Below are positions 1,960 to 18,221 of a DNA stretch of 32,429 bases, piece by piece. The stretch comes from a virus. A program made the position numbers and the translations under genes. The first letter of the stretch is position 1. Every line of letters begins with the position of its first letter. Below the pieces are notes generated by a model, which was given only the letters and a program-made list of their open reading frames with translations, ran no database searches and had not been told where the DNA came from. The stretch covers positions 1 through 32,429 of IMG/VR virus record IMGVR_UViG_3300030107_000167; one strand, written 5' to 3'.

Positions 1960-3168
1960 TTATCTCCTTGGTCTAAACGACTGTGCGAATAGTTGTGTTA
2001 GTTTATCGTTTTGTTGCATCGGTGGCAACCCACCTAATCCTGAATTAAGTGCTCCTCCTCTGCTTCTTCTTACATACTCTAGTTCAGGAGGAGGATAACC
2101 TAAATTAGGAGAAGGATAACCTAGATCAGTAGAAGGATCTGGTGTACCCATATTTGGGTTTGGTGTGCCCATGGTTGTGACAGGCTCTTGTCCTGGTCTG
2201 CTTCCAAACTCTGCAGCAGACATTGGTCTAACGTATGCTTGTTGTTGTTGAGGTTGTGGGTTATATACTGCATTTTGTAATGCTGAATTATACGCGGCTC
2301 TTTGTTGTTGTATTAAATTACTGACGGGGGATTGAACTATTCTTGTAAAGTTTGGATCCATTTCTGGCAGTCTTATTGGATCACCTTCAATTATAGTTCC
2401 AGCTGGCATTGGTATTCCTTCTCCCATTGGCAAACCTAAGTCTTCTCCTGTTATTGGAAATGATCTTGGTGGGTCGTCTTCTGCTAAAATTACTTCAGAA
2501 TCAGGTCTGTATGGTGCTTCGTTTTGTATGGCTATAAACCTTTCATCTTCGCCGCTCATATAATTTGGATTATAAGTGTCTATAGATGAGGAAGGCTCTG
2601 TGAATGTAGGAAAATTTATATCAGAGACAGATTCTATAACTGGGTCGACTATCGATGTGCTTGGACCTGGATCAACCATGCTGGGAATACCTGACTCAGA
2701 TTCAGGTACAATCTGGGCTGGTGGAAGTGAGTTTTCTATTATTTGTTCTATGGTTGTTTCTATGCTAGGAGGTAGAGGTGCTGAAGGCTCTACGAATGTA
2801 GGAAAATCTCTATCAGAAATAGCTTCTATGGTATCAAATTGATTGGGGGATGCAGGAAAATCTTCGAAAGGTACTTTATCATCTACAACTGTATTCCTTA
2901 TATCATCATATCTATCAGGTTCCATAATGAATGTTTGCATTATTTCTTCTACAACAGGAGGCAACGAACCAAGTCCTGTTTGAAATTCATTAACTTGTTC
3001 TATTTTTGTTTCAGCCGCGTCTTTTTCGTATTCGTTAGTCGCCTCTGCTAATTCTTGTTCTGCAAGATATTGAGCGACTTGCGATGCAATGCCCGCATTG
3101 ATCTCGTCCATGTTTAAGTCTGGTAACGCAAACCCACCTAAGTTTATTCCGCCAAATCCTGGACCCAT
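1960..3168 (-). CDS. Pro/Glu-rich structural or ejection-type protein
   Basis: Not recognised at family level. It has 402 residues, is acidic, and is mostly low-complexity Pro/Glu/Ser sequence, as in an extended or disordered protein. An Ala/Glu-rich predicted helix at about residues 20-70 is followed by a duplicated segment (consensus SDxxFPTFxEPS at about residues 115 and 180), then a Gln/Asn/Pro-rich tail with short repeats of the type GTPNPNMGTPDP and GYPSPNLGYPPP. The C-terminus (FRPRR) is basic. The ATG overlaps the stop of the 1102-residue gene (TAATG), so translation is probably coupled. Position among the large Gly-rich virion proteins suggests an internal virion or ejection component. 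No enzymatic motif is visible. Confidence 0.72.
   Translation of the reverse strand: MGPGFGGINLGGFALPDLNMDEINAGIASQVAQYLAEQELAEATNEYEKDAAETKIEQVNEFQTGLGSLPPVVEEIMQTFIMEPDRYDDIRNTVVDDKVPFEDFPASPNQFDTIEAISDRDFPTFVEPSAPLPPSIETTIEQIIENSLPPAQIVPESESGIPSMVDPGPSTSIVDPVIESVSDINFPTFTEPSSSIDTYNPNYMSGEDERFIAIQNEAPYRPDSEVILAEDDPPRSFPITGEDLGLPMGEGIPMPAGTIIEGDPIRLPEMDPNFTRIVQSPVSNLIQQQRAAYNSALQNAVYNPQPQQQQAYVRPMSAAEFGSRPGQEPVTTMGTPNPNMGTPDPSTDLGYPSPNLGYPPPELEYVRRSRGGALNSGLGGLPPMQQNDKLTQLFAQSFRPRR
2591..2830 (-). repeat. Imperfect direct repeat pair of about 48 bp inside the 402-residue gene
   Basis: Two imperfect copies, 2591-2638 and 2783-2830, share most bases and encode the duplicated block IEx(I/V)SDxxFPTFxEPS. 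They are in the same orientation and 144 bases apart, consistent with an internal gene duplication. Confidence 0.7.
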
Positions 3169-6100
3169 TAGTTAAACCCTCCTCCAAATGTTCCCGTTGC
3201 TGTCTCTACTATTGTATCACCTAAGTTACCCTTGGGTTGTCTTTTTTCTTGGGTATCGTAATACCTTAATTCATTACCTAAATCAACAGCTTCTACAATA
3301 CCGTAGGAAGTTAAAAATCTTCCAAACGCATCCATAGTTATCTGTCCTTGATATGCTTTCATTGTTTGTTTAAATAATTCGTCATCTAACAACATTTGTC
3401 CAAGAAAGGCTCTACTTTTTTCGCCTGATAAAACTTCTGCGGCGGTTAACCTTCGACCTGTTTGTGTTAATGGCGGTATTAAAAATCTACGCAAATACTC
3501 TGTTTGTGGAATTGCACTTTCTTTTATAACACGTTCAATCGCAGGATCTCTACCTAATACGCCTCTTTCTCTTTGAACTAGGTTATTAAATATTTTTAAA
3601 TTTTTAGTGTATTTTTTACCTTCTGTCCCTAGTAAAGGTGCGACAAAATCATCAAAGCTCAGCCCTGTTATTTCTTCAGGTCCGAAACCTCCATATATTA
3701 ATCTGTTTAAAGCTTTTTCATCTACTACGGTTCCCTGACCTACAGGCGATGGTTTGAATATTTTATTGTTAATCCATGCTTTAGTAGCTTGCGCTACTTG
3801 TTTTTTCAATATCGGATTTCTATTTATTATATTGAGCATGTATTCTTGATCTACAAATACTTGTCCTGACATTTTTGCGTCTTCTGATACATTTAAAAGA
3901 CGTGTAACTATATTAGTCACACTTGGATCAGGATTTGCTAAATCCCCAAAACGAGCTTGTAGTGCATTTATATCGTCTTCTGCTTTTTGTAGTGGTTTTA
4001 AAATATTCTTTTCAAAAGCTGTAGGTGATCCATAGTATTTAAAATCACCACCAAAAACAGTTTCTAAAGTTCCTTTGTGGTCATCTAAAAACGCCCTATA
4101 TTCACGAGCTATTTGTAACGGGGTTTTATCAGGTTGATCTAAGATATCTTGTCTAATTCTTTGTGAAAGTGCTCTACGTACTTCTAGTAATTCATCACCA
4201 CCCGATTTTCCAACTACCTCTACAAAGTCTGACATTTTTGAATTAAATTTACTTCCAGGAGTGCTGGTACTTAAGATGTAGTCAACAACTGTTTCAGGTT
4301 CTCTTTGTAAAATACTTTGTATCGCTGCAGAGTTTGATCTTTTTATAGCTTTTGCCTGCTGTGTCCATGCAGAAGCTATATCTAACCCATAACCTGTGTC
4401 TTGCATATACTCTTTTAATTGTTTAGAACCAATCTTGAAACCAGATTCTTTAGCTGCTCCTCCTTCAAGGTATCTATACATTTGTTGTTCTATCCCTCTT
4501 TCTAAATCTCTAGCAAGTTTAAAAGCTGTGGGATTTTTGTCTTGTATTCTACTTGCAAAATCATTTAACACTGTTCGTGCTTGATTGAGTTCTTGTAAAC
4601 TAAACTCAGGAGAAGCTAATTTACCTTTTGGATCTCTACCTTGTAGTCTTTTTAAAACAGTGCCACCTTCTGTTCCTAAAAGTTCGTTTAACAATCCTCT
4701 CGCTTCTGCGCTATCTGCAGACCTAAATAATTGATCTGTTTGTCGTTTAGACACTTTATCCCAATTTGTTGCTGGACCTCTTGTAAATCCAGCGCCTGTC
4801 GGAGGGGCATCTGCATATCTAGGATTATTAATAGCGTCATCAAAAGCTCTAGCAAACGGCTCAACGTATTGTTGTTTAATTTCGCCTAAACGTGTTGTTG
4901 TTCTTTCAAATAAAGGAGTGGATATTCTTTCGTCTGGTACTTCTTTTAATAAAACCTGACCACCTGTTGCAATATCTTCTGTTTCTAATAAATTGTTTCT
5001 TAAACTATCTATCGCTTCTCTTGCATTTTGCTCTATTGTGGCAACGTCTTGACGAATTAAAGCACTAACACCTTCCCCAACTTCCGCACCTGTAACACCT
5101 GTAAATGGTTCGCCTATTCCTTCATTTAAAGCTTTAATAAATTGGTTGATAACTTCTTCATTACCTGTTTTTAATGCTGAATATAAAGCGGCAACTTCTG
5201 GGTTATCGGCGTTTTTAAGAAAAACTTGTTCGAAATTTTCTGCAGTAGGTAGTCCTGTTCTACTTGCTATAGTAGGGTTGTATTCAGAAAATTCTCTACC
5301 CGTTATTTCAGCTAGTTCTCTAATCGCATCTCTAATTGCTTTTACAGAAATTTCATCACCGTAAGTTACTGAAGGGAATATAGCCTCTCCTCTTTCACTG
5401 GCTTGAGCTTTTTGTAAAAGTTCGTCCATTTGATTAAAGAAAGATTGAGGAACATCTTCTCCTGTAATTTTTCTATATATGGAGGGTATGCCTTTCATAG
5501 CGGCTGTTACTGCAAGAGTTCCTCCGAAAGTAAGTGCGCCTATCATCCCTGATTCTTTTAGCATCTCACTAAAATCTCTATCGTGCGCTCCTAACTCACT
5601 ACCTATAAGTAGTCTTAGAAAATCTCCGCCAGCCGCTCCAGTAGCAGATAGTCCACTGAGTTTCGCTAACTCAGTAAAACGACCCATAGGAGTTTTGCTT
5701 ATGCCTGTTGCTAAAGGTTCAAACTTTTTACTGCCGTAAATAGTTAAAGCTATATCTCCTGCAATCGCAGGAAATTCTTGTACTAAAAATTCAGGGATAT
5801 CTGAGCCTGTAAATTGAGGTAAATCAAATATTTCGTAATCTTCTGCTCCTTTTTCTTTTATTAATACACCTAGTTCTGGTTTACTAGGGTTTATATATCG
5901 AGGAGCTTCTTCTAATTCGATGTCTTGATTTTCGAATAAATATGCTAAGTCTTGCGTGGTTAGATTTCTAGGACCGAAACTCCCTAACGTTCTTAATTTA
6001 GCGTCTTTACCAAAATCACCTGTTGTATATTGTTTTTGTGGATCAAACCCTAACGCGGCTAATTCTTTTTGTACGGCTAACCCAACAGGCTCTGGTGGTG

Positions 6101-6476
6101 GTGCGGGAGCCACGTTCCCTGGAAAATCTCTAAACTGTCCTCTTTCTTTATAGTTTTTTAATGCTTCAACATAAGCTGGTTGACGTTCTTCCATGTCATA
6201 AACTATGGGAGCTCTGCGGTACGGAGATACTCTTTTTTCAATTATCTGGTCTACAAAAGGTAATCTTTTATTTAGCCAATCTTCCCCGTATGTTTGTTTA
6301 GCTAATTCAGCAACTTCTGGATCTTTTAAAACTAACGTATTAAGTTCAACGGGAGACACATAATTTTTGTAAAGAAGATTTTGGTTATCAGCAAAAATTG
6401 GAGCATTTGCTAATGCCGCCGCTTTTTTATCTCGAAGTTCCTCGAAAGTAGTGGTGTCGGGTAAAACAGCTGACAT
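3168..6476 (-). CDS. Large internal virion / ejection-type protein, 1102 residues
   Basis: Large phage protein of 1102 residues without a motif I can assign confidently. It is mostly predicted alpha-helical with long charged, Gln- and Leu-rich stretches. A Gly/Ala-rich partly hydrophobic stretch lies at about residues 270-330, such as GLSATGAAGGDFLRLLIGS and a nearby segment around GALTFGGTLAVTAAMKGIP, which could be membrane-active. Length, composition and place in a row of large late proteins after the lysis genes match the internal core or ejection proteins of short-tailed phages (the role filled by T7 gp15/gp16 or P22 gp16/gp20); that match is inference from context. I see no clear lytic transglycosylase signature. 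The stop TAA overlaps the next gene's ATG. Confidence 0.75.
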   Translation of the reverse strand: MSAVLPDTTTFEELRDKKAAALANAPIFADNQNLLYKNYVSPVELNTLVLKDPEVAELAKQTYGEDWLNKRLPFVDQIIEKRVSPYRRAPIVYDMEERQPAYVEALKNYKERGQFRDFPGNVAPAPPPEPVGLAVQKELAALGFDPQKQYTTGDFGKDAKLRTLGSFGPRNLTTQDLAYLFENQDIELEEAPRYINPSKPELGVLIKEKGAEDYEIFDLPQFTGSDIPEFLVQEFPAIAGDIALTIYGSKKFEPLATGISKTPMGRFTELAKLSGLSATGAAGGDFLRLLIGSELGAHDRDFSEMLKESGMIGALTFGGTLAVTAAMKGIPSIYRKITGEDVPQSFFNQMDELLQKAQASERGEAIFPSVTYGDEISVKAIRDAIRELAEITGREFSEYNPTIASRTGLPTAENFEQVFLKNADNPEVAALYSALKTGNEEVINQFIKALNEGIGEPFTGVTGAEVGEGVSALIRQDVATIEQNAREAIDSLRNNLLETEDIATGGQVLLKEVPDERISTPLFERTTTRLGEIKQQYVEPFARAFDDAINNPRYADAPPTGAGFTRGPATNWDKVSKRQTDQLFRSADSAEARGLLNELLGTEGGTVLKRLQGRDPKGKLASPEFSLQELNQARTVLNDFASRIQDKNPTAFKLARDLERGIEQQMYRYLEGGAAKESGFKIGSKQLKEYMQDTGYGLDIASAWTQQAKAIKRSNSAAIQSILQREPETVVDYILSTSTPGSKFNSKMSDFVEVVGKSGGDELLEVRRALSQRIRQDILDQPDKTPLQIAREYRAFLDDHKGTLETVFGGDFKYYGSPTAFEKNILKPLQKAEDDINALQARFGDLANPDPSVTNIVTRLLNVSEDAKMSGQVFVDQEYMLNIINRNPILKKQVAQATKAWINNKIFKPSPVGQGTVVDEKALNRLIYGGFGPEEITGLSFDDFVAPLLGTEGKKYTKNLKIFNNLVQRERGVLGRDPAIERVIKESAIPQTEYLRRFLIPPLTQTGRRLTAAEVLSGEKSRAFLGQMLLDDELFKQTMKAYQGQITMDAFGRFLTSYGIVEAVDLGNELRYYDTQEKRQPKGNLGDTIVETATGTFGGGFN

Positions 6477-6477
6477 A

Positions 6478-8109
6478 TTATCCTTGTAATATAGTTTCTA
6501 ATTCTGAAATATCCGTATCATCTGTGGTGCCTGTACCGCCACCTGTTGCAACATTAGAAGGTCTTTGGTGTTGTTTAAATATTTTATATTCAGGATTATC
6601 TTTATAACGAGTAGAAAAAGGTCTAAAGGTATATCCTAAATAATTTTCCCATTGTTTATTTCCATCTTCTCCCGTAATAGGATCATAGTACATACCTATA
6701 ATGGATTGTGCTTGTTTTTCTTGCATATTAAAACGACCCATTCCTTCTTTAGGTAAATACACCATAGTTTGCGTATCTGCTCCTTTTTCTAACGAATCGA
6801 TAAAAGCGAGTAAATTTGCTTTTAATACTCTAGGATCTTGAGAAGCACCGAAACCTACAATTTCTAAGTGGTATTGTAAATCTTTATCTGACAATGTTCG
6901 ACCTGTTTGTCCGTTAGCAGCCGCCGCCATATACGCAAGTTGTAGTAATGTTGCTCTAGTTCTTACATTACGGTAAGAGGCGTCACCCATAATACCTTTA
7001 AGGTCAATACCCATAGCTTCTCCGAAAGCATCACTGGCTAAACGTATTTGATCTTCGTCGCCTGATCTTAATGCGTTATATAAGTTTTGAGCATTAACCC
7101 CTGTTCCTGCGAGTGTGCCTCCGTTTTGACTTTTACTAAAGAAACTGTCCACGGATCGCGTACCGTTAAGACTAGCTATTTGATCGAAATTAGCAAAAAG
7201 ATCATTACCAAAATTTAAGAAAGAATTTGTAATCGTCGTTGGATTTTTAGATGGATCTTTTATTGCTTCATCTAAAAACTCTATCGTACCGTTTGCTATT
7301 GTGACAGTATCTAAAATAGCTTTATCTTTAGACATCTGTTCTTGTTGGGCTTTTAATAATTCTTTATATGTCGGATCTTTAAAGAAATCACTAAGTCCCG
7401 CGCCACCTGTATCAAAATCTCCTACATCGATCCAACGAGTTCCTTTTAAAGCTTCGTCAGATGTTTCGACATACCCTTGTTTATTTGCCCTAGGATTTTT
7501 TGGATCGTGTACTAATGTTGTTTGAGATTTAGGTAAGAAAATTGCAGGTCGCGTATCGATAACACCTGTTTTAGCTTTATTAACGTCTATTACAGTTAGA
7601 TCTTGTGCTGTTTCAGGAGCTAACTGTTCTTTTATAAATTGTCTTTTTGCGGCGTCTACGTTACGTTTTGCGTCTCTATTAGCTATCGATCTGTTAATAG
7701 CTGTTTGTGCATATTGTGCTCCGCCTTCATCTCCAAATCCCGCAGCTACTAACGCATTGATACCCATAGGTAGGAGCTCTTGGAATAATGTAGGATCTTC
7801 TCTTTCCGCTCCATATATTAAATCAGCTTGCATTCTGGCTCTGTCAATCGCAGGGTCGCCTGTAGGTTGTCTTTCTTTAATTGCGGGTTGAGGTAAAAAT
7901 CTATCACTTAATAAACTAACGAGTCCAGGAGCAAAATATGCGGCAGGGTTTATCTCTTTTCTACCGCCGCCGCCTCCGCCGCCTGCTTGAGGAAACCTAA
8001 TCGGTGCAGGTCTAAGTTGTAATTGCGGTATTACGCCGCCCTGTCCGCCCGCATTAAACGTTGGGAATGGTAGTGTTCCTAATCCTCTTCTTTGTCTTCC
8101 GTTTGCCAT
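6478..8109 (-). CDS. Gly-rich putative internal virion protein, 543 residues
   Basis: Not recognised by family. The first 50 residues are Gly/Pro/Arg-rich with a run of Gly (QAGGGGGGGRKE). The central part is helical and charged (for example LLKAQQEQMSKDKAIL at about residues 245-260). The C-terminal half contains LLQLAYMAAAANGQTGRTLSDKDLQYHLEI in two overlapping helices and then IIGMYYDPITGEDGNKQWENY. The final 25 residues are Gly/Thr/Asp-rich. A short hydrophobic stretch YFAPGLVSLLSDRFLP lies near residue 57. It sits 1 base from each neighbouring gene, both also large helical or Gly-rich proteins, so an internal or ejection role is likely but not proven. Confidence 0.72.
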   Translation of the reverse strand: MANGRQRRGLGTLPFPTFNAGGQGGVIPQLQLRPAPIRFPQAGGGGGGGRKEINPAAYFAPGLVSLLSDRFLPQPAIKERQPTGDPAIDRARMQADLIYGAEREDPTLFQELLPMGINALVAAGFGDEGGAQYAQTAINRSIANRDAKRNVDAAKRQFIKEQLAPETAQDLTVIDVNKAKTGVIDTRPAIFLPKSQTTLVHDPKNPRANKQGYVETSDEALKGTRWIDVGDFDTGGAGLSDFFKDPTYKELLKAQQEQMSKDKAILDTVTIANGTIEFLDEAIKDPSKNPTTITNSFLNFGNDLFANFDQIASLNGTRSVDSFFSKSQNGGTLAGTGVNAQNLYNALRSGDEDQIRLASDAFGEAMGIDLKGIMGDASYRNVRTRATLLQLAYMAAAANGQTGRTLSDKDLQYHLEIVGFGASQDPRVLKANLLAFIDSLEKGADTQTMVYLPKEGMGRFNMQEKQAQSIIGMYYDPITGEDGNKQWENYLGYTFRPFSTRYKDNPEYKIFKQHQRPSNVATGGGTGTTDDTDISELETILQG

Positions 8110-10112: not shown

Positions 10113-10223
10113 TTATTTGATATGTTCTTTATTATTTGCATAGTGTTCCCAGTATGGTTTATTAGCGGATAAAGCCGTTCCCGAAGGCTGCAGTAAAGAA
10201 CTGATGAGTTGATTATACTTCAT
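10113..10223 (-). CDS. Possible 36-residue protein translationally coupled to the cyclase
   Basis: An ORF of 36 codons starting MKYNQLISSLLQPSG and ending ANNKEHIK. Its ATG lies inside the end of the cyclase gene, so the reading frames overlap by 11 bases, and the ORF fills the only gap of more than 100 bases in this part of the operon. No ribosome site is apparent, so it would depend on translational coupling. No membrane segment or known motif. It is either a true small protein accompanying the cyclase or an accidental ORF. Confidence 0.4.
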   Translation of the reverse strand: MKYNQLISSLLQPSGTALSANKPYWEHYANNKEHIK

Positions 10224-11967
10224 GATTATTGACTGTGTATATATTTATTGGTTTTTCTTTTCCCTTTACTTTTATCGGTTTTAGTTGTTTAAGTTTTATT
10301 TGTGTTTCTAAAGCTGTATTTTCTGTAATAACTATATCTTCTCCGACTTCTTTACAGCTACTTTCCATTCTAGCGGCTGTATTTACAGCATCACCTATGG
10401 CTGTATAATCGAAGCGCGTATCACTGCCCATATTACCAATTACAGCTTCTCCTGTATTTAATCCAACTCCAATCTCTATACCAATACCTTCTTCTTTTAT
10501 AAGTTGTTGCATTTCTATAGCGGCAAGAACAGCTTTATGTGCGTGGTTTTCTAAATCTAGTGGTGCATTAAATATCGCCATCATTGCATCACCAATATAT
10601 TTATCCACCATACCCCCATGTTTTTGTACTATTTTTTGTTGTATAGTAAGTGCTTTATTCATAACTATAGTAACTTCTTCTGGAGACATAGTTTCGCTCA
10701 TAGCTGTGAACCCTCTTACGTCTGTAAATAAAAAAGTACAGTATCTTTTTTCTCCACCTAGTTTTAATAATTCAGGATTATCTTGTAATCGTTTGACCTG
10801 TCCAGGATCTAAATAATGTTCGAATTGTTTTTTAATTTGCTGACGGAGTTTAAATTGTGTACGGTAATTTATATAAAAAGCCGTCGTTCCTGTTAATATT
10901 TCAGATATTAAAGTCCATGTTACGTCTATTAATAACCCGTTTTTTATTAAATAAAGCCCAGAAAACGCAGTTACGCCCGATATAAAGGTCGCTAATACTA
11001 CTCCAGAGGTTATTCCGAATACGTTTAAAACTACCCATATAAGGCTTATCGCTACGGTAAATATAATAAGCTCTACAGCTAACGCATAATCAGGGACATA
11101 CGGGCTGTTTTCTATCAAAATACTTTCAGCTAAAGCTGTTTGTATTTTATGAGGCTCTAGCAAACCTACAGGTGTAGCAAGCTGAGGCATAATACCTTTA
11201 GCTGTGAATCCTACAAATACAAATTTGTTTTCTACATTCATTTCTTTAAGGTCTGTTTGCGGTGTATCTACCCAACTAACCCATTTTCTACCAAAAGAAT
11301 CTACAGGAACAGGTGGTATACCTTTTACTCGTATTTCTTCTAAACCGTTTTGATTTGTTTTAATAACATAAGTATCTGCCCCCGCTAATATTTTCAATAC
11401 CTCAGTTCCATAAGAAGGAACCCAACCGTCAGGAGTACGCATTAATAAGGGTAACCTACGTACTAATGAATCTACTTCTGGTCTAGCTATCGCTATACCT
11501 TGTGAAGCATTTTGTTTTAATACTTCAATGTTTTGTACTACGCCTTGTGCCTCGATACCACCTATATCTTCACCTAAAATTACAGTTCCTGTTGTAGGTG
11601 GGTAATCGTCTGTATTATTTTCATACATAGCTAAAACACTAGGTGCAAAACGTAACGCTTCTGTAAATTCAAAGTCACCTCCGAATCTATCTGGTTGAGG
11701 GAAAGCTATAACCCAACCAACACCTATTGCCCCTTGCCTTAGTAAATTAATTTGTATTTGGGCTAATGTTTGCCTAGACAAAGGATAACCGCCTTCGTTA
11801 GCGATATCTTCCTCCGTAATATTTAATATAGTGAAATAACCAGAAGGTTGTTGTTCAGGTAAAAAGTAATCGAAAGTTTTAAGTTTTAAAGTTTCTAAAG
11901 GAGATATTTGTAATACTAATGGGACACCTAGCAGTATTATTAATACGGCGAATATGGCTTTTTTCAT
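10213..11967 (-). CDS. CHASE2-domain class III adenylate cyclase
   Basis: A membrane sensor cyclase of 584 residues. I start at ATG 11967 (MKKAIFAVLI), which overlaps the FecR stop as TGATG; an in-frame TTG is one codon earlier. Domain order: N-terminal TM (about 3-21), periplasmic CHASE2 sensor (about 25-290), three TMs (about 295-315, 318-342, 345-365), a short linker (KKQFEHYLDPG), then a class III catalytic domain (about 405-570). Catalytic residues are all present: metal-binding Asp416 (LFTDVRGF) and Asp460 (KYIGDAMMAIFNAP), transition-state Asn529 and Arg533 (NTAARME), and the Lys456/Thr522 pair seen in bacterial adenylate cyclases. The predicted product is therefore cAMP. FecR next to CHASE2-cyclase is, as I recall, a recurrent bacterial pairing. 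The unusual point is its presence in a phage late operon. Confidence 0.93.
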   Translation of the reverse strand: MKKAIFAVLIILLGVPLVLQISPLETLKLKTFDYFLPEQQPSGYFTILNITEEDIANEGGYPLSRQTLAQIQINLLRQGAIGVGWVIAFPQPDRFGGDFEFTEALRFAPSVLAMYENNTDDYPPTTGTVILGEDIGGIEAQGVVQNIEVLKQNASQGIAIARPEVDSLVRRLPLLMRTPDGWVPSYGTEVLKILAGADTYVIKTNQNGLEEIRVKGIPPVPVDSFGRKWVSWVDTPQTDLKEMNVENKFVFVGFTAKGIMPQLATPVGLLEPHKIQTALAESILIENSPYVPDYALAVELIIFTVAISLIWVVLNVFGITSGVVLATFISGVTAFSGLYLIKNGLLIDVTWTLISEILTGTTAFYINYRTQFKLRQQIKKQFEHYLDPGQVKRLQDNPELLKLGGEKRYCTFLFTDVRGFTAMSETMSPEEVTIVMNKALTIQQKIVQKHGGMVDKYIGDAMMAIFNAPLDLENHAHKAVLAAIEMQQLIKEEGIGIEIGVGLNTGEAVIGNMGSDTRFDYTAIGDAVNTAARMESSCKEVGEDIVITENTALETQIKLKQLKPIKVKGKEKPINIYTVNNHEV

Positions 11968-13082
11968 CAACTACCTTGTTTTATTGTTATTGTATTTGCT
12001 GAACCGCCATTAACTTTTACAACATTTTCTACGCCGTTTTGTAAAAGAATTAAAGTATAGGCACTCGATCCGTCTAAATCTAAACGTATACTAGAACCTA
12101 CCTCGCGTCTAAGACTAACTACTTGTCCTGTTATTATTGTAGTTATTTGTGTTTCTTTATCCTGACCTAAACTTGTTCCTGCAATTTTTATATCCGTTGC
12201 AACTCTTGTAAGTTGGTCATCATCCTCATCGATAGCTAATGCATCTATAATTTTTAATAAATCTTCTAAGAAATTTACGTCAAGATAATTTATATCTAGT
12301 TCGGTAAATTCTAAATCAGCGCTGTTTTCTAACAAATCTTCTGCTAAAAAATCTATATCTAAATCCGCAAAATCTAAATAATCTGTAGAAGTTTGTTGTC
12401 TTTCTTCTTCAAGTAATTCTTCTGACTTAGGAGGATTAACTATTAACATATTATCAATAAATTCAAGAGAAATATCTAAAATAACAGGAGCTGAAGGAGG
12501 TCGATTAAAGGTGATGGCTGTAGTTGCTTGATAAGCTTGATTTAATATTACTTGCCCCATGGCTGTTTCAACTAAAATTTCACCGCTAGGATTACCGTAT
12601 TCGTCAGGAAGCAAGATAATTAAAGAAGAACCTGTCTCTGGGGTTGTAGTAATTGTAAAATCAGTTCCTCTTACAAAAACATTAGCACTCGGAGTACTAA
12701 TATTAATCGCTTTTTTATTATTAAATTTACCAGTAACAAACCTAGCTGTACCACTAGCGAAACGTAAAGCCATTTCAGATTTATTAGGATCTGGGTCATA
12801 GATGTAAGTATCTATAACTAATTTGCTATGATCCATAACACGAACTATCGTGTCATCTTCGAATTTTATAGCTACGCGACCAGCTTCTGTTTTTACATTA
12901 TCCATTTGCTGAATTGGAAAAGCCAACTCAGCTCCGTATGGTTTATCTCGTACTACTTGTGCGTTACCACGTAACTCGCTAATACTGCCTATATCAACAG
13001 CTTGTGCTTGTGCCTTGGTCGTTTTGAATAACGCAAACGGTACTAGAAGTAGAACCAACACTAATAATTTTAAGCCAGTCAT
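11967..13082 (-). CDS. Exported FecR-domain protein with C-terminal curlin-like repeats
   Basis: A 371-residue secreted protein with a signal peptide (LLVLVLLLVPFALFKTTKAQAQA, cleavage near residue 28, written here as overlapping hydrophobic and AQAQA parts). A FecR-type beta domain follows (about 33-185), with GRVAIKFEDDTIVRV and the hallmark TPSANVFVRGTDF. The middle (about 225-285) is Asp/Leu-rich with short repeats of the type DLDIDFL, ELDINYLDVNFL. The last 32 residues look curlin-like: SAYTLILLQNGVENVV has QxGxxN (Gln348-Asn353), followed by NTITIKQGS. It could therefore dock to, or nucleate, the curlin-like fibre made by the upstream gene; that is inference. The 5' end overlaps the curlin gene by 89 bases in another frame. 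No anti-sigma N-terminal region is seen, so it is not a FecR of the iron-transport type. Confidence 0.85.
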   Translation of the reverse strand: MTGLKLLVLVLLLVPFALFKTTKAQAQAVDIGSISELRGNAQVVRDKPYGAELAFPIQQMDNVKTEAGRVAIKFEDDTIVRVMDHSKLVIDTYIYDPDPNKSEMALRFASGTARFVTGKFNNKKAINISTPSANVFVRGTDFTITTTPETGSSLIILLPDEYGNPSGEILVETAMGQVILNQAYQATTAITFNRPPSAPVILDISLEFIDNMLIVNPPKSEELLEEERQQTSTDYLDFADLDIDFLAEDLLENSADLEFTELDINYLDVNFLEDLLKIIDALAIDEDDDQLTRVATDIKIAGTSLGQDKETQITTIITGQVVSLRREVGSSIRLDLDGSSAYTLILLQNGVENVVKVNGGSANTITIKQGS

Positions 13083-13707
13083 TATCTAATGTACTTTGTT
13101 GTTGTATATTAAAATTCCTATTACTTCCTGTATGGTCTAAATAAAAATATCCGCCCGCATATCCATCGCCGTCATATGTAACAGAATTATCTGAACCGTC
13201 TATATCCATGTAATTAGTCGCTGCATCTATATCGATTGCTGAAGTAATAGTATTACTAGAACCGTTTATAATCCAGTCTAAATCTAATGTAGTTGCCTGT
13301 GCGACCATGGCGTGATTTAATGTAAAGGTATTAGTATTACCTGTTACATCAACATTTAAATTAGACGAGTCTGCTCCATAAGTATTTGTTTCATCGGTGC
13401 TCATATTGAACGTATTTGAATTACCGTCAAACTCAAAAAATCCTGTATAAGAATCTGCGGTTATATCGCCTAAGAACTTATTACTGTCCCCTATTTGATT
13501 TATATCAAGGGTCATAGCTGTGCCGTCTAAATCTAAGGCTGTCATTGTCCCTGCTACAGCGTCTGCCCCGCCGATTATGTTACCAGAGCCAAGTTGTTCT
13601 AAATCCATATTAGAATTAGAACTACCTGAACTTTGGTCAACAAAGATTTCGTTATCTGCTCCGTATAAAGGCGTCGATAACATAAGTATTAATAGAAATT
13701 TTTTCAT
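12994..13707 (-). CDS. Curlin-like secreted repeat protein
   Basis: A secreted repeat protein of 237 residues. I start at ATG 13707 (MKKFLLILMLSTPLYGADN), 8 bases after GGAGG, giving a signal peptide cleaved near residue 17; an in-frame TTG further up is less likely. The mature part is Asn/Ser/Gly/Thr/Asp-rich with recurrent GxxN units: LEQLGSGN and INQIGDSN match the curlin QxGxxN signature exactly, and FDGNSNTFNM, VTGNTNTFTL, INGSSNTITS, IDGSDNSVTY and HTGSNRNFNI are looser copies at roughly 20-45 residue spacing. It ends VCVIQNDQGTSTSC with two Cys. The gene directly follows CsgG (ATGA overlap) and is predicted to be exported through it. It is larger and more irregular than E. coli CsgA, and amyloid formation is inferred only. 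Confidence 0.8.
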   Translation of the reverse strand: MKKFLLILMLSTPLYGADNEIFVDQSSGSSNSNMDLEQLGSGNIIGGADAVAGTMTALDLDGTAMTLDINQIGDSNKFLGDITADSYTGFFEFDGNSNTFNMSTDETNTYGADSSNLNVDVTGNTNTFTLNHAMVAQATTLDLDWIINGSSNTITSAIDIDAATNYMDIDGSDNSVTYDGDGYAGGYFYLDHTGSNRNFNIQQQSTLDNDWLKIISVGSTSSTVCVIQNDQGTSTSC

Positions 13708-14543
13708 TCTTTTATCCTCCAATAGTTATTATTTACACCCTCATTTATTGTTTCTAATACAGCTGTTTCAATCGCCATTTGTAAGGCTATGCTGGTTGGC
13801 TCATTTTTCACAGCACCTCCTTCGATTTCAATCAACTCTGTATTATCTGAAACAAATCTAAATATATCGTTATCAAGCGAAGCTGATAAAACAGTTTTAG
13901 TAACTAAAACTTCTATCAAAACTCTACCCGTCATGACCGATACAGTTCTTAAACTAACTGTTATTATATCCTCTCTATACTGGCGCGATACCCCTATTCC
14001 AAGATTTCTAGCTCCCATACCACCACTTGTTATGTTAGCTTGATAAGATAGAACTCCTCCCGTCATAATCATGTCCCCGAACTTTAAGGGCATAAGTTTT
14101 TGTTTTTCGTCAAAAGTTTCTCTCGTCGAACGAATTAACTGTCTTTCTTTAGTTACTGAATCTAAAGAAACTCGCTCAACTACTTCGAAAAATCCAGAGT
14201 GTTTTAATGCTCTTATAAGGTATGCGTGTGGGGCTTGTGTAATCGCTGTACTAAAAGTAGCATATTGAGAATTTGATCTTCTTTGTCCTGTTTGATCTTT
14301 AAAGTTATCTGCATAAACTGCAACAACAGGTTTTCTTTCTGGTTCTGGTATTTCTGTAAAATCTGTATATAATGATTCTACCTTTGCTTTTTCTATATGT
14401 TTTACTTGAGGGATATTATTATCTAAAGGGTCTATCATCAAAGTACAACTAGAAAGTAAAACCGCCAACAGGAACAATAACTTCCGTAACTGTTCCGTCT
14501 TCGTCAGTAATAGTAACTTTGACTTCTTCATCGTTAATCTCAT
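13704..14543 (-). CDS. csgG: CsgG-like curli secretion channel lipoprotein
   Basis: Homologue of the outer-membrane curli export channel CsgG, 279 residues against 277 in E. coli. A lipoprotein signal ends in a lipobox, LLSSC, lipidated Cys33. By-eye alignment to E. coli CsgG matches throughout: DQTGQ, FSTAITQ, ALKHSGFF, VERxxLDSVTKERQLIR, GGVLSYQANITSGGMGAR, LGIGVSRQY, TVSLRTVSVMTGRVL, TKTVLS, IFRFVS, NEPTSIALQMAIETAVLETINEG. In the constriction loop Phe56 appears conserved (ATFSTA), but Tyr51 and Asn55 appear replaced (Ser and Thr), which could alter pore gating. The 5' end overlaps the csgF end by 95 bases in a different frame, or 83 if the second ATG (14531) is used; neither has a clear ribosome site. 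Acts with the CsgF-like protein to secrete the curlin-like protein. Confidence 0.93.
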   Translation of the reverse strand: MRLTMKKSKLLLLTKTEQLRKLLFLLAVLLSSCTLMIDPLDNNIPQVKHIEKAKVESLYTDFTEIPEPERKPVVAVYADNFKDQTGQRRSNSQYATFSTAITQAPHAYLIRALKHSGFFEVVERVSLDSVTKERQLIRSTRETFDEKQKLMPLKFGDMIMTGGVLSYQANITSGGMGARNLGIGVSRQYREDIITVSLRTVSVMTGRVLIEVLVTKTVLSASLDNDIFRFVSDNTELIEIEGGAVKNEPTSIALQMAIETAVLETINEGVNNNYWRIKE

Positions 14544-14919
14544 ATTCTATAGTGTTGCCATCAAGTTCCATAGAACCACTTTTATTTGTATCTTCTCCAA
14601 ATAATGAAGCCTCTACTTGTCTCGCTATGTTGGCATAGATTCTTGAAGTAAGGTTTCGCATAAACCTTGCTTCAACTGTGTTCGTTTCTTCTCTTTCTAA
14701 TTCGTCTCTTAAAGCTTCGATCTCATCTCTAATAGCTTGAGCTCGATTCGTTTCTTGATTCTCTATCGTAAGGTAATGAGAAGAAGTTCCTTCTCCTGAA
14801 AAACTTGGACTTTTAAATTTATGCACCATTTCGTCAGCACTAATAATTGTTGTAAGGACTATTAGAAATAAACCCATAAGACAGGTTATTAATACCCTAA
14901 TTTTATCTTGCCTACTCAT
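14449..14919 (-). CDS. csgF: CsgF-like curli assembly factor
   Basis: Likely CsgF, the exported chaperone that docks into the CsgG pore and couples secretion to surface fibre assembly. It has 156 residues from ATG 14919, which overlaps the preceding stop (TGATG). A signal peptide with hydrophobic core LITCLMGLFLIVLTTIISA ends near residue 30. The mature start, HKFKSPSFSGEGTSSHYL, matches the CsgF pattern FxFRNPxFGG that inserts into CsgG. A helical segment (about 50-95) and a beta-rich C-terminus ending VIVPVGGFTF follow, as in CsgF (138 residues in E. coli). Support is mainly the N-terminal motif and the adjacent csgG. Its 3' end overlaps the csgG signal-peptide region by about 70-95 bases. 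Confidence 0.82.
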   Translation of the reverse strand: MSRQDKIRVLITCLMGLFLIVLTTIISADEMVHKFKSPSFSGEGTSSHYLTIENQETNRAQAIRDEIEALRDELEREETNTVEARFMRNLTSRIYANIARQVEASLFGEDTNKSGSMELDGNTIEYEINDEEVKVTITDEDGTVTEVIVPVGGFTF

Positions 14920-15269
14920 CAATCTTTTCTTTGGTCGTCTCTATCTGCTTTTGCTATTTTATTACTATCTATTAACTGCGGCACACCGAGTATTGTTTTT
15001 ATAAGTGTGTCTTGTCTAATAATTTCATTATCTAAACTACGTACCCTGTCAATAAGTGCAACTAAAATGCCGTGTTGAGAGTCTAACTTTGTGCCAAGTC
15101 TTTGTTCCATTTGTTCTATCTGATCCGCCACTTTATCGTCTAATACATCTAATTTTGTTTCCATGCCATCAATAATTCTATTGATAAGTTTCCATATGAA
15201 GAAACCAAGACCTAATGCGGCGGCTATCGGAAAGCCAACTTCCGCTATAAATAGGGTTATATCTTCCAT
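14919..15269 (-). CDS. Single-TM coiled-coil protein, holin-like or lysis accessory
   Basis: A 116-residue protein with one N-terminal TM (about residues 5-27, FIAEVGFPIAAALGLGFFIW) and a long coiled-coil tail (about 35-92, DVLDDKVADQIEQMEQRLGT), then a charged C-terminus. This build, with N-terminal TM and cytoplasmic coil, is common among small phage holins and holin-associated proteins of the BhlA/XhlA kind. It lies directly downstream of the 3-TM holin gene and its start shares one base with that gene's stop. A lysis role is inferred from context; the family is not certain. The downstream neighbour is the csgF-like gene. Confidence 0.7.
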   Translation of the reverse strand: MEDITLFIAEVGFPIAAALGLGFFIWKLINRIIDGMETKLDVLDDKVADQIEQMEQRLGTKLDSQHGILVALIDRVRSLDNEIIRQDTLIKTILGVPQLIDSNKIAKADRDDQRKD

Positions 15270-15745
15270 TAATCTTGTTTCTGCGACGCTCCAAAATAAA
15301 AGCTAATTACTGCAGAAGCTAAACCACCTAAATAGCCAAGAACAAGGTTTATTAAAGCTTCGCTATTTTGTTCTGGGGGCTGAAGCGTAACTAAAAATAT
15401 ATAGGCTAAAAAACCACCCACAGTAGCTACACCCATTATTCTAGCTGTCCAGTCTTTGCCAAACTTACCTCTAGCATCTTGTTTATCAGCAGTTTCTAAT
15501 TTGAAAACATCTACGTCTAGTTCTTTCATCTGTAATTCAAACGCTTGTTCTGCTTTTTTAAGTTCTAGCATTTGTTCAGGAGTTGCTGATTCTATGGCTT
15601 TTTCTATCGATTTAGCGTCGTTTTTACAACCTAAGACTTCTGATATCATGTTTGCAGCCATTCCGCCCATTGGACCTCCAAGAGCAGTTCCTAATGTAGG
15701 AGCTACTGCTCCTACTACATTTTTTAATAATCCACCTATTTTCAT
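15269..15745 (-). CDS. Holin of the 3-TM (gene-transfer-agent release) type
   Basis: A 158-residue protein resembling the three-TM holin family linked to gene-transfer-agent release and many alphaproteobacterial phages. A hydrophobic Gly/Ala-rich N-terminus (about 10-38) precedes a charged helix (about 55-90, SATPEQMLELKKAEQAFEL), the conserved DKQDARGKFGKDWTARIMG block, and two TM segments (about 104-121 and 131-152, LINLVLGYLGGLASAVISFY). It is predicted to assemble in the inner membrane and release the lysozyme encoded at 17455-17898. ATG with GAGG 7 bases upstream; the first bases overlap the nuclease gene end. Confidence 0.85.
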   Translation of the reverse strand: MKIGGLLKNVVGAVAPTLGTALGGPMGGMAANMISEVLGCKNDAKSIEKAIESATPEQMLELKKAEQAFELQMKELDVDVFKLETADKQDARGKFGKDWTARIMGVATVGGFLAYIFLVTLQPPEQNSEALINLVLGYLGGLASAVISFYFGASQKQD

Positions 15746-16170
15746 TTTACTTCCTCTGGGTTAAATAAACCTTTTTCTATTAGAATATCCCTGTTACGCA
15801 TGTGTTCGGCTTCTACATTATCTTTCGATTGTCCATGATAAGCGACTGCTAGATGACATTTAACCATAAGTTGATTAATATTGACATCATCTACAACTAT
15901 ATCTCCCAATACTCTACCATACTTACCTTTAGAGTCTTTAAGTTTTGTTTGTATAACTACTTTTTCTCCGTCTTCTATAGCCTCTTTTAAGAAAGCCCCA
16001 GCCATTTTTCCTCTAACCTTTTCATCTTTGTTACGAGTGCGTGACTCGGGAGTATCAATGCCATATAGACGAACACGACACTTATGAAGAATGTCAAAGC
16101 CAAGATCCAAAGTAACATCGACAGTGTCTCCATCGACCACTCTTTCAACTGTGCAACTATATTCATACAT
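15742..16170 (-). CDS. Staphylococcal-nuclease-like (SNase/thermonuclease) protein
   Basis: A compact SNase-fold nuclease, 142 residues. All core catalytic features are visible: VVDGDTVDV (calcium-ligand Asp13 and Asp15), RLYGIDTPE (Arg34, Asp39, Glu42), KYGRVLGDI (Arg86, equivalent to Arg87 of the Staphylococcus enzyme), and the C-terminal helix pattern with AYHGQ. No signal peptide, so it would act in the cytoplasm during infection or after lysis. It could degrade host or competing DNA, but an anti-host role is inference. Located between basic proteins and holins; the end overlaps the holin start by 4 bases. Confidence 0.92.
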   Translation of the reverse strand: MYEYSCTVERVVDGDTVDVTLDLGFDILHKCRVRLYGIDTPESRTRNKDEKVRGKMAGAFLKEAIEDGEKVVIQTKLKDSKGKYGRVLGDIVVDDVNINQLMVKCHLAVAYHGQSKDNVEAEHMRNRDILIEKGLFNPEEVK

Positions 16171-17454: not shown

Positions 17455-17898
17455 TTATTCTCCTTTTAACATTTTTTCTTTTAACCTAACTGCTCGATTA
17501 CCTACTTGGGTAGCCCACTTAGAGTCCATCATCTCCTCAGCAGCTTTCTCCCAATCAGACGCTTGAACAGCGGTTAAAAATTTAACAAATTTGCTCAATC
17601 TAGGTAAACCTAAATTAAACGCCATATTAGCTAAGACACGTTGACGAACGCCATCTAGTTCTGTCCACCATGTCATGTTTTTATCTAATTCTTTACATAC
17701 AATGTCTATATCATTACGAAGACATTCTTTAATTCTTTGTTCTGAAACTGGTGTGCCTATTGGCTTACCGAATTCCTCATCGGTTTCTAATATTAGATGT
17801 CCTACTCCAAACGTTGGGTAGCCAAGATGATCTAAATAAATCTCATATTCATAGCCTTCATCTTGTATTAATTCTTTTTCTAACTCATCTATGTTCAT
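17455..17898 (-). CDS. T4-type lysozyme (GH24 endolysin)
   Basis: The phage endolysin, a muramidase of the T4 lysozyme type that cuts peptidoglycan. I start at ATG 17898 (MNIDELEKELIQDEGYE), 147 residues; a longer in-frame start gives 34 residues lacking any lysozyme feature. Catalytic Glu14, Asp23 and Thr29 keep T4 spacing (Glu11-Asp20-Thr26) within QDEGYEYEIYLDHLGYPTFG, followed by GVGHL. Further conserved pieces are ANMAFNLGLPRL and WATQVGNRAVRLKE. T4 lysozyme is 164 residues, so this is slightly short but complete. ATG overlaps the previous stop (ATGA). No signal peptide, so it needs the holin. Confidence 0.93.
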   Translation of the reverse strand: MNIDELEKELIQDEGYEYEIYLDHLGYPTFGVGHLILETDEEFGKPIGTPVSEQRIKECLRNDIDIVCKELDKNMTWWTELDGVRQRVLANMAFNLGLPRLSKFVKFLTAVQASDWEKAAEEMMDSKWATQVGNRAVRLKEKMLKGE

Positions 17899-18221
17899 AA
17901 TATCGATACCGTAGTTGATCCGTTTGTTGAAACAGAAATTTTTCCAAGAGAAGCCACACCCTCTACTCCATTTTCTGTTCCCGTATAAATATCTACCCAT
18001 TGCTCACCTGTCCATAATTGTAGTTGGTCAGTACTTAGGTTCCAAATAATATCGCCTTTCTGAAACTGATTTTCGTTACGTTGTGTCTCGTTTACAGAAA
18101 GCGTTGAGTCTATGTCTACTTTATTAAGACTAAGCTCTAAAACTCTAACCAACCTGTTAAAAGTTTCAGGAGATATTTCTCCTATAGCGACTGGTAATTT
18201 TGTCTCTAATATTTTAGCCAC
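17895..18221 (-). CDS. Small putative structural protein (108 residues)
   Basis: A 108-residue protein beginning AKILETKLPVAIGEISPETF with a GTG start that overlaps the stop of the 628-residue gene (TAGTG). The middle contains KGDIIWNLSTDQLQLWTGEQW, a small beta-hairpin-like pattern often seen in tail or baseplate accessory proteins, and the end is Thr/Ser-rich. No enzyme motif. Its place between the hub-like protein and lysozyme suggests a tail accessory role; inference. Confidence 0.68.
   Translation of the reverse strand: MAKILETKLPVAIGEISPETFNRLVRVLELSLNKVDIDSTLSVNETQRNENQFQKGDIIWNLSTDQLQLWTGEQWVDIYTGTENGVEGVASLGKISVSTNGSTTVSIL

Follow-up and report, generated by a model that had tools for sequence, protein, structure and literature searches.

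The window analysed here, a 32,429-nucleotide stretch forming positions 1 to 32,429 of the viral record IMGVR_UViG_3300030107_000167, stems from a marine phage and carries a gene that, judged from its sequence, is an intact, selected and membrane-anchored sensor cyclase adjoining the lysis genes, with presumed cyclase activity and ATP as its presumed substrate. On balance, we lean towards regarding this receptor-type cyclase as the output half of a phage envelope sensor, in which the FecR-domain protein encoded beside it is likely to be the partner of the CHASE2 domain. The core finding, a curli module with a cyclase in an HTVC023P-type phage, has already been published (Wittmers et al. 2022, PMC9599517). 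What is new is the FecR–CHASE2 pairing, its trace in relatives that have no cyclase, and the missing cAMP receptor. Many marine phages carry the module, and the role of the cyclase within it is unexplained.

The Cyclase Gene and Its Product

The cyclase gene lies on the minus strand at 10213–11967, from an ATG at 11967 to a stop at 10213, a strand that the earlier note on this DNA had not given, and encodes a protein of 584 aa; an in-frame TTG at 11970 stands one codon 5' of the ATG. Pfam matches identify a CHASE2 sensor domain (E 2.5e-24; about residues 12–304 in ATG numbering, 11056–11934, minus strand) and a class III catalytic domain (Guanylate_cyc, E 3.3e-24; about residues 409–579, 10231–10743, minus strand), both exceeding the curated cut-offs. 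Counted from the ATG, residues 416, 456, 460, 522, 529 and 533 are D, K, D, T, N and R, and all six had been named correctly in the earlier note. We take these to be the two metal-binding aspartates, the Asn/Arg pair and the base-selecting Lys/Thr pair, and Lys456/Thr522 is presumably of the ATP-type specificity. Together with the Guanylate_cyc fold, these residues place the enzyme in class III (IIIb-like).

The AlphaFold2 model of the cyclase (mean pLDDT 76.5, pTM 0.54) has an N-terminal helix at residues 2–19 followed by a periplasmic-type alpha/beta domain, a helix at 295–342 with room for two transmembrane segments, a transmembrane helix at 350–381 and then the cyclase core. The protein thus has the layout of a CHASE2 receptor cyclase, namely an N-terminal transmembrane segment, CHASE2, three transmembrane segments and the cyclase; the CHASE2 sensor and three transmembrane segments described earlier are borne out by Pfam and the model, and the N-terminal segment is an additional one. 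A PDB fold search and a sequence profile match the fold to CyaB (3r5g, 35% identity), Cya2 (2w01) and CyaC (1wc1).

Relatives of the cyclase occur in at least 597 viral stretches, which excludes chance, and 80 of them were fetched; a scan with the cyclase of phage HTVC008M gave 585 relatives (80 fetched) and a scan with CsgG gave 42, the fetched viral samples being biased to close relatives. All 193 full-length viral cyclases have D416, K456 and D460 (193/193), R533 is present in 192 (one gap, in a truncated row) and N529 in 191 (one S, one gap), while position 522 is T in 85, S in 106, D in one and a gap in one. Between the window and its relative L005, dN is 0.068 and dS 0.995 over the whole cyclase (dN/dS about 0.07), with dN 0.041 and dS 0.735 in the catalytic domain; in deeper pairs synonymous sites are near saturation. 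On this ratio and the unbroken residues, cyclase catalysis looks selected. Moreover, 82 relatives are on average 72% identical to the window in CHASE2 and 66% in the catalytic domain, so constraint on the sensor is at least as strong as on the enzyme.

The sampled viral cyclases and five MAG contigs form one clade (100/99) apart from 14 cellular CHASE2-cyclases, in a tree with long branches and a small cellular sample. The phage-type cyclase was also seen at eight loci in MAG bins (L085 to L092), all marine, in MAGs named Pelagibacter, Neomarinimicrobiota, Flavobacteriaceae, Saprospirales and Rickettsiales. These loci were considered as cellular ancestors and are instead read as binned phage contigs, L085, the one examined, having a capsid match and neighbouring structural matches; the cellular relatives were taken from genome searches and not from these bins.

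Gene Neighbourhood and Phage Type

On the minus strand, the gene order is a phage lysozyme (endolysin; 17455–18000, Pfam E 1.2e-10), an SNase-like nuclease (15742–16170, Pfam E 1.6e-14), a 158-aa protein with two hydrophobic segments (15269–15745, a holin-type guess), a holin-like 116-aa coiled-coil protein with a single transmembrane segment (14919–15269), CsgF (14449–14922, Pfam E 2.8e-19), the outer-membrane curli pore lipoprotein CsgG (13704–14543, Pfam E 2.7e-47, with a lipobox-like LSSC), a curlin-repeat-like secreted protein (12994–13722), a secreted FecR-domain protein (11967–13082), the cyclase, and two ejection- or tail-type PHROG genes. The curlin-repeat-like protein, which resembles CsgA/B, was recognised by an HMM built here and by its annotated equivalents in phages HTVC008M and Melnitz; no Pfam curlin match was found in it. 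The FecR-domain protein has 371 aa, a hydrophobic N-terminus ending in AQAQA and a Pfam FecR match (E 2.1e-11). The 3' end of csgF overlaps csgG by 95 nt (14449–14543), and that of the curlin-repeat gene runs 89 nt into the FecR gene (12994–13082), each pair on the same strand in different frames, so that the export signal of the downstream gene is encoded within the 3' end of the upstream one.

The cyclase is therefore the last gene of a contiguous, borrowed curli-secretion module of a small transmembrane protein, CsgF, CsgG, the curlin-repeat protein and FecR. It is not a new gene standing alone, as it closes a T8SS/curli module published for this phage type (PMC9599517) and annotated in the cultured phages HTVC008M and Melnitz. 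The late operon proposed in the earlier note fits the position of the module, on one strand between lysis-type genes and genes with ejection or virion matches, from which late expression may be predicted. The 158-aa protein flanks the module on either side in relatives. Two large proteins at 3168–6476 (1102 aa) and 6478–8109 (543 aa) occupy the place of ejection proteins and have no PHROG match at E 0.01.

The capsid protein is 75% identical to that of 023Pt_psg01, 73% to that of DSL-LC04 and 71% to that of HTVC023P, and matches were found for just some of the remaining structural genes. The capsid, the gene layout and an SNF2 helicase at the opposite-strand edge identify an HTVC023P-type podophage. 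The closest cultured kin infect Pelagibacter, but DSL-LC04 is listed with a gammaproteobacterial host, and we infer a Pelagibacter-type host for the window phage from these kin.

Comparison with the Published Module

Wittmers et al. (2022, PMC9599517) reported a T8SS in nine HTVC023P-type genomes together with FecR, a "histidine kinase" and an adenylate cyclase, and described its alphaproteobacterial kinship, its transfer between myo- and podophages and a metatranscriptome signal. The window has the same pelagiphage order of CsgF, CsgG, curlin repeat, FecR and cyclase in the same phage type, while CHASE2 is not named in the available text of that paper (0 occurrences). The myophages HTVC008M (Pelagibacter) and Melnitz (Methylophilales) carry CsgF, CsgG, a curlin repeat, FecR, a curlin repeat and the cyclase; they differ from the window in this second repeat gene between FecR and the cyclase and in their T4-like genomes, and their cyclases are 34% (HTVC008M) and 32% (Melnitz) identical to that of the window over 95%. 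Sibling capture has been proposed in the available text on pelagimyophages (PMC7029224). A literature search on cyclic AMP in pelagiphages gave Wittmers et al. 2022 alone, and among the matches listed no FecR–CHASE2 coupling was found for phages.

Where the text of PMC9599517 names a histidine kinase 5' of csgF, the window has the 116-aa single-transmembrane coiled-coil protein, in which no kinase domain was found. Under a strict distance rule, 78 of 99 loci with more than 500 nt upstream have a protein of this type immediately 5' of csgF, and among the 20 listed misses it is present among the genes in all but L200 and L203. None of 30 members of its family matches any kinase family in Pfam, and the PHROG holin families match nine and three of the 30, weakly. 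The protein goes with csgF in the modules of podo- and myophages, in one or two copies. From its position and copy number, it is probably the published "HK, sometimes two".

The FecR-Domain Protein as Candidate Partner of CHASE2

Among 144 genomes of the class that holds the Pelagibacter MAG, CHASE2 is present in 72 and FecR in 75. FecR lies within 4 kb of 34 of 149 alphaproteobacterial CHASE2 genes, 28 of these on the same strand, where both the 149 CHASE2 places, with one phage contig dropped, and the FecR places are those among the matches listed; the chance expectation is 1.44 under uniform placement with all 173 CHASE2 matches entered. This excess favours reading FecR as a partner for CHASE2 over giving it an iron-regulator role. 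The viral profile detected a cyclase in 14 of the 20 pairs fetched out of the 34. A SlipAM-type outer-membrane barrel adjoins FecR and the CHASE2-cyclase in clusters L110 and L115, and a TPR/barrel protein and a CRP-type regulator stand at the cluster in L114; clusters of these types hold some of the sampled cellular cyclases nearest to the viral clade. SlipAM was found in 17 of the 144 genomes and CsgF in three, one of them a phage contig; the two cellular CsgF places have no adjoining CHASE2 or FecR among the matches listed. It appears, then, that the phage has combined two sets of cellular genes, one for curli secretion and one for a FecR–CHASE2 receptor.

In a classical FecI/FecR iron-citrate regulator, the FecR domain stands behind a cytoplasmic anti-sigma region and a transmembrane segment and has an ECF sigma factor as its partner. 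The phage protein has instead a signal-peptide-like N-terminus and FecR as its sole Pfam domain, and no sigma factor match was found in the scanned set of window proteins. The possibility that FecR is an iron regulator was considered and ranked lower on account of this N-terminus, the proximity to CHASE2 and the absence of a sigma partner in that scan. The fold of the phage FecR domain resembles the PupR cell-surface signalling domain 6ovk and 4m0h in a modest model (mean pLDDT 68.8).

Association of FecR with CHASE2 has been published for Campylobacterota (PMC9239204) and for Burkholderia, where the CHASE2 protein is a histidine kinase (PMC5192318). As in the cellular clusters L110, L114 and L115, FecR in Campylobacterota adjoins a CHASE2-cyclase and an outer-membrane barrel (PMC9239204); these cellular clusters have a SlipAM-type or other barrel in place of the phage CsgG/F. 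The CHASE2 cyclases CyaD1, CyaD2 and CyaK of S. meliloti are likewise driven via an outer-membrane partner, the receptor NsrA, and free ribosomal protein uL2 is a signal in that system (PMC7529298, PMC13001267). In the available accounts of that system, the output is read by Clr, a CRP-family protein whose targets include the FecR-domain gene SMc02177; no counterpart of Clr was found for the phage module. A cellular FecR–CHASE2 pair with a different output was also seen, at L129 (G015:C1:321000-330000), where a CHASE2-SpoIIE phosphatase lies about 2.4 kb from FecR in a 1.2-Mb genome of the order of the Pelagibacter MAG.

Cyclase Loss and the Form of the FecR Domain

Downstream of CsgG, FecR is present in 29 of 29 loci and the cyclase in 23 of 29, these being the loci, out of 40 new ones in the CsgG-based set, with at least 4.2 kb of room downstream. 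Altogether, the cyclase is absent from eight related module loci (L211, L216, L217, L218, L219, L247, L223 and L249) and is thus dispensable for the module. L211, L216 and L217 have the synteny of the window minus the cyclase, with the last 11–13 cyclase codons and the same 3' flank behind the FecR stop; at L211:8989-9035, the in-frame C-terminal remnant lies directly 3' of FecR. The other five loci have no such scar and a different junction. L223 and L249, which had at first been classed as uncertain ("AC?") with an L211-type domain, were then found to have no cyclase, and L210 and L221, whose contigs end, are in neither class.

The FecR domain (residues 52–205; 12468–12929, minus strand) has a form that goes with the presence or absence of the cyclase. 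The eight cyclase-less domains, L211 included, have identities of 0.73–1.0 to L211, whereas the 129 cyclase-bearing ones have at most 0.65. A division of all viruses into two FecR-domain alleles was rejected, as cyclase-bearing FecRs beyond the clade of the window have other forms, and 69 of the 129 rows with a cyclase resemble L211 more closely than they do the window. The claim, on sequence comparison, is thus limited to eight cyclase-less loci sharing a form that is absent from 129 cyclase-bearing rows.

In trees of five distinct cyclase-less and 29 cyclase-bearing rows, the cyclase-less FecR domains form one clade (100/99; all 200 bootstraps). The number of changes in cyclase presence needed is three for the C-terminal half of FecR, four for CsgG, and five each for the curlin-repeat protein and CsgF, and a single cyclase-less clade is rejected for the FecR C-terminal half (p-AU 0.008) and for CsgG (p-AU 8e-56). 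Since the C-terminal half sits between the FecR domain and the cyclase, close linkage alone explains this pattern poorly, and a functional tie would be the simplest explanation. The CsgG tree gives three supported and independent contrasts, all agreeing but too few for significance (sign test p 0.25). The cyclase-less form of the FecR domain could have had a single origin, followed by spread of the haplotype.

cAMP Machinery in Likely Hosts and Phages

The host-order sample comprised 148 genomes of the order holding 'Ca. Pelagibacter' MED605, which we infer to be Pelagibacterales from the name of this MAG, genomes of about 1.2 Mb and a G+C content of about 28% in the loci sampled. No cellular class III cyclase (PF00211) was found in 147 of these genomes, the lone match of the 148 being a phage contig, and no CRP helix-turn-helix exceeded the cut-off in any of the 148, although 20 had weak sub-threshold matches; the RecA control exceeded its cut-off in 129 of the 148. 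The cNMP-binding domain PF00027 occurs in 13 of the 148 genomes, and the three proteins scanned were of acyltransferase type or ABC transporters. It was not found in any of 12 phage records, a set with whole genomes for HTVC008M and Melnitz and fragments for several of the rest. On these searches for class III cyclases and CRP-type proteins, the likely host order seems to have no known machinery to make or read cAMP. Of the mechanism in the earlier note, the sensor and the enzyme are borne out; the proposal that the phage could rewire cAMP signalling is doubtful for such a host, in which the product would have no known reader, and an existing cAMP circuit to rewire is probably not present. A protein with cNMP-binding and acyltransferase parts (L101:898-3264), mostly 870 aa, was found in 12 of the 148 genomes among the places listed, one of them Pfam-checked, and is the sole candidate cyclic-nucleotide binder seen in this order besides ABC transporters.

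With no known cAMP machinery in the likely hosts, any cAMP in infected cells there would be phage-made and might lead to a new receptor. A bolder version, which we put forward as speculation with little expectation that it is right, is that the phage brings a private input (pore, FecR ligand and CHASE2 cyclase) to make cAMP in a lineage without known cAMP use; the product might act on an unrecognised host or phage receptor, or leave through an ungated CsgG and pass between infected cells to coordinate lysis or exclusion.

Proposed Mechanism and Alternative Explanations

In the envelope sensor that we favour, the FecR-domain protein would be exported beside the CsgG/CsgF pore and would likely serve as the periplasmic partner of CHASE2. 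A change in the pore, the fibre or the surface state would lead CHASE2 to alter the dimer, and the cytoplasmic domain would then convert ATP to cAMP, late in infection near lysis; the enzymatic activity, the ATP substrate, the direct FecR–CHASE2 contact, the stimulus and the late expression are all presumed in this scheme. The invariant D416, K456 and D460, the low dN/dS, the FecR–CHASE2 pairing in bacteria and the tracking of the cyclase by the form of the FecR domain are consistent with it. Against it stand the S. meliloti gene SMc02177, which lies near cyaD1 and was unneeded for the plant signal in the available text of PMC5498481, the five distinct cyclase-less sequences with their three contrasts, and the failure to find a cNMP domain in the 12 phage records or a CRP-type protein in genomes of the likely host order. 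If the pair is true, FecR would be a candidate ligand for CHASE2.

Wittmers et al. (2022) read the cyclase, FecR and the histidine kinase as regulators of curli expression and iron use that together control the T8SS of the infected cell, as cAMP aids CsgD in enterobacteria. The conserved module order agrees with the reading of these authors (PMC9599517). We nevertheless find it unlikely, given their own statement that CsgD is absent, the same shortage of cNMP domains (0/12 phage records) and CRP-type proteins (0/148 genomes), the signal-peptide-like N-terminus of a protein with only a FecR domain by Pfam, and the lack of a kinase domain in all 30 members of the family 5' of csgF. A role in lysis timing appears similarly doubtful to us. 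Here the CsgG/CsgF pair, for which a pinholin-like role has been proposed with phage Melnitz (PMC9004378), would form the pore, and the cyclase would report or add to the collapse of the envelope, for example as an ATP sink. In the window and in relatives the module does adjoin holin-like genes, the nuclease and the lysozyme; however, the cyclase is missing from eight related loci, and an ATP sink would have no need of conserved catalytic and sensor domains together.

That the cyclase is a passenger carried along in module transfer, with no present function, would agree with its clean losses, both with a C-terminal scar (L211, L216, L217) and at another junction (L218, L219, L247, L223, L249). 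It is quite improbable in view of the dN/dS of about 0.07, the metal and base residues unbroken in 193/193 cyclases and the FecR-domain form that tracks cyclase presence. A Pycsar-type cyclase, or a counter-defence enzyme in antiviral cyclic-nucleotide signalling, is suggested by PADLOC PycC models matching the catalytic domain (best E 2.8e-29), and we regard it as very improbable indeed, for the fold behind this match is common to class III cyclases, no cNMP-binding effector was found in the 12 phage records or the scanned window neighbours, and the protein has CHASE2, transmembrane segments and an ATP-type Lys456/Thr522 pair, a specificity rule that we take as given.

The 3' Flank of the Cyclase

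A sigma-70-like promoter match lies over the 3' end of the cyclase (10212–10241, minus strand) and is kept in cyclase-less relatives, in a region where promoter-like matches (33) are not above those in shuffled sequences (29.0, sd 4.8). A structured RNA at this place was considered and rejected: Rfam gave no match over the whole window up to E 1, and the sub-region gave one chance-level microRNA match on the other strand, below the gathering score. A TATAATC followed by a stem-like leader is conserved 3' of the cyclase at 10150–10215 (minus strand), in 14 of 250 scanned sequences, and the conserved stretch looks like a promoter with its leader. The overlap of the scar with the promoter-like match may be the reason why the remnant has stayed.
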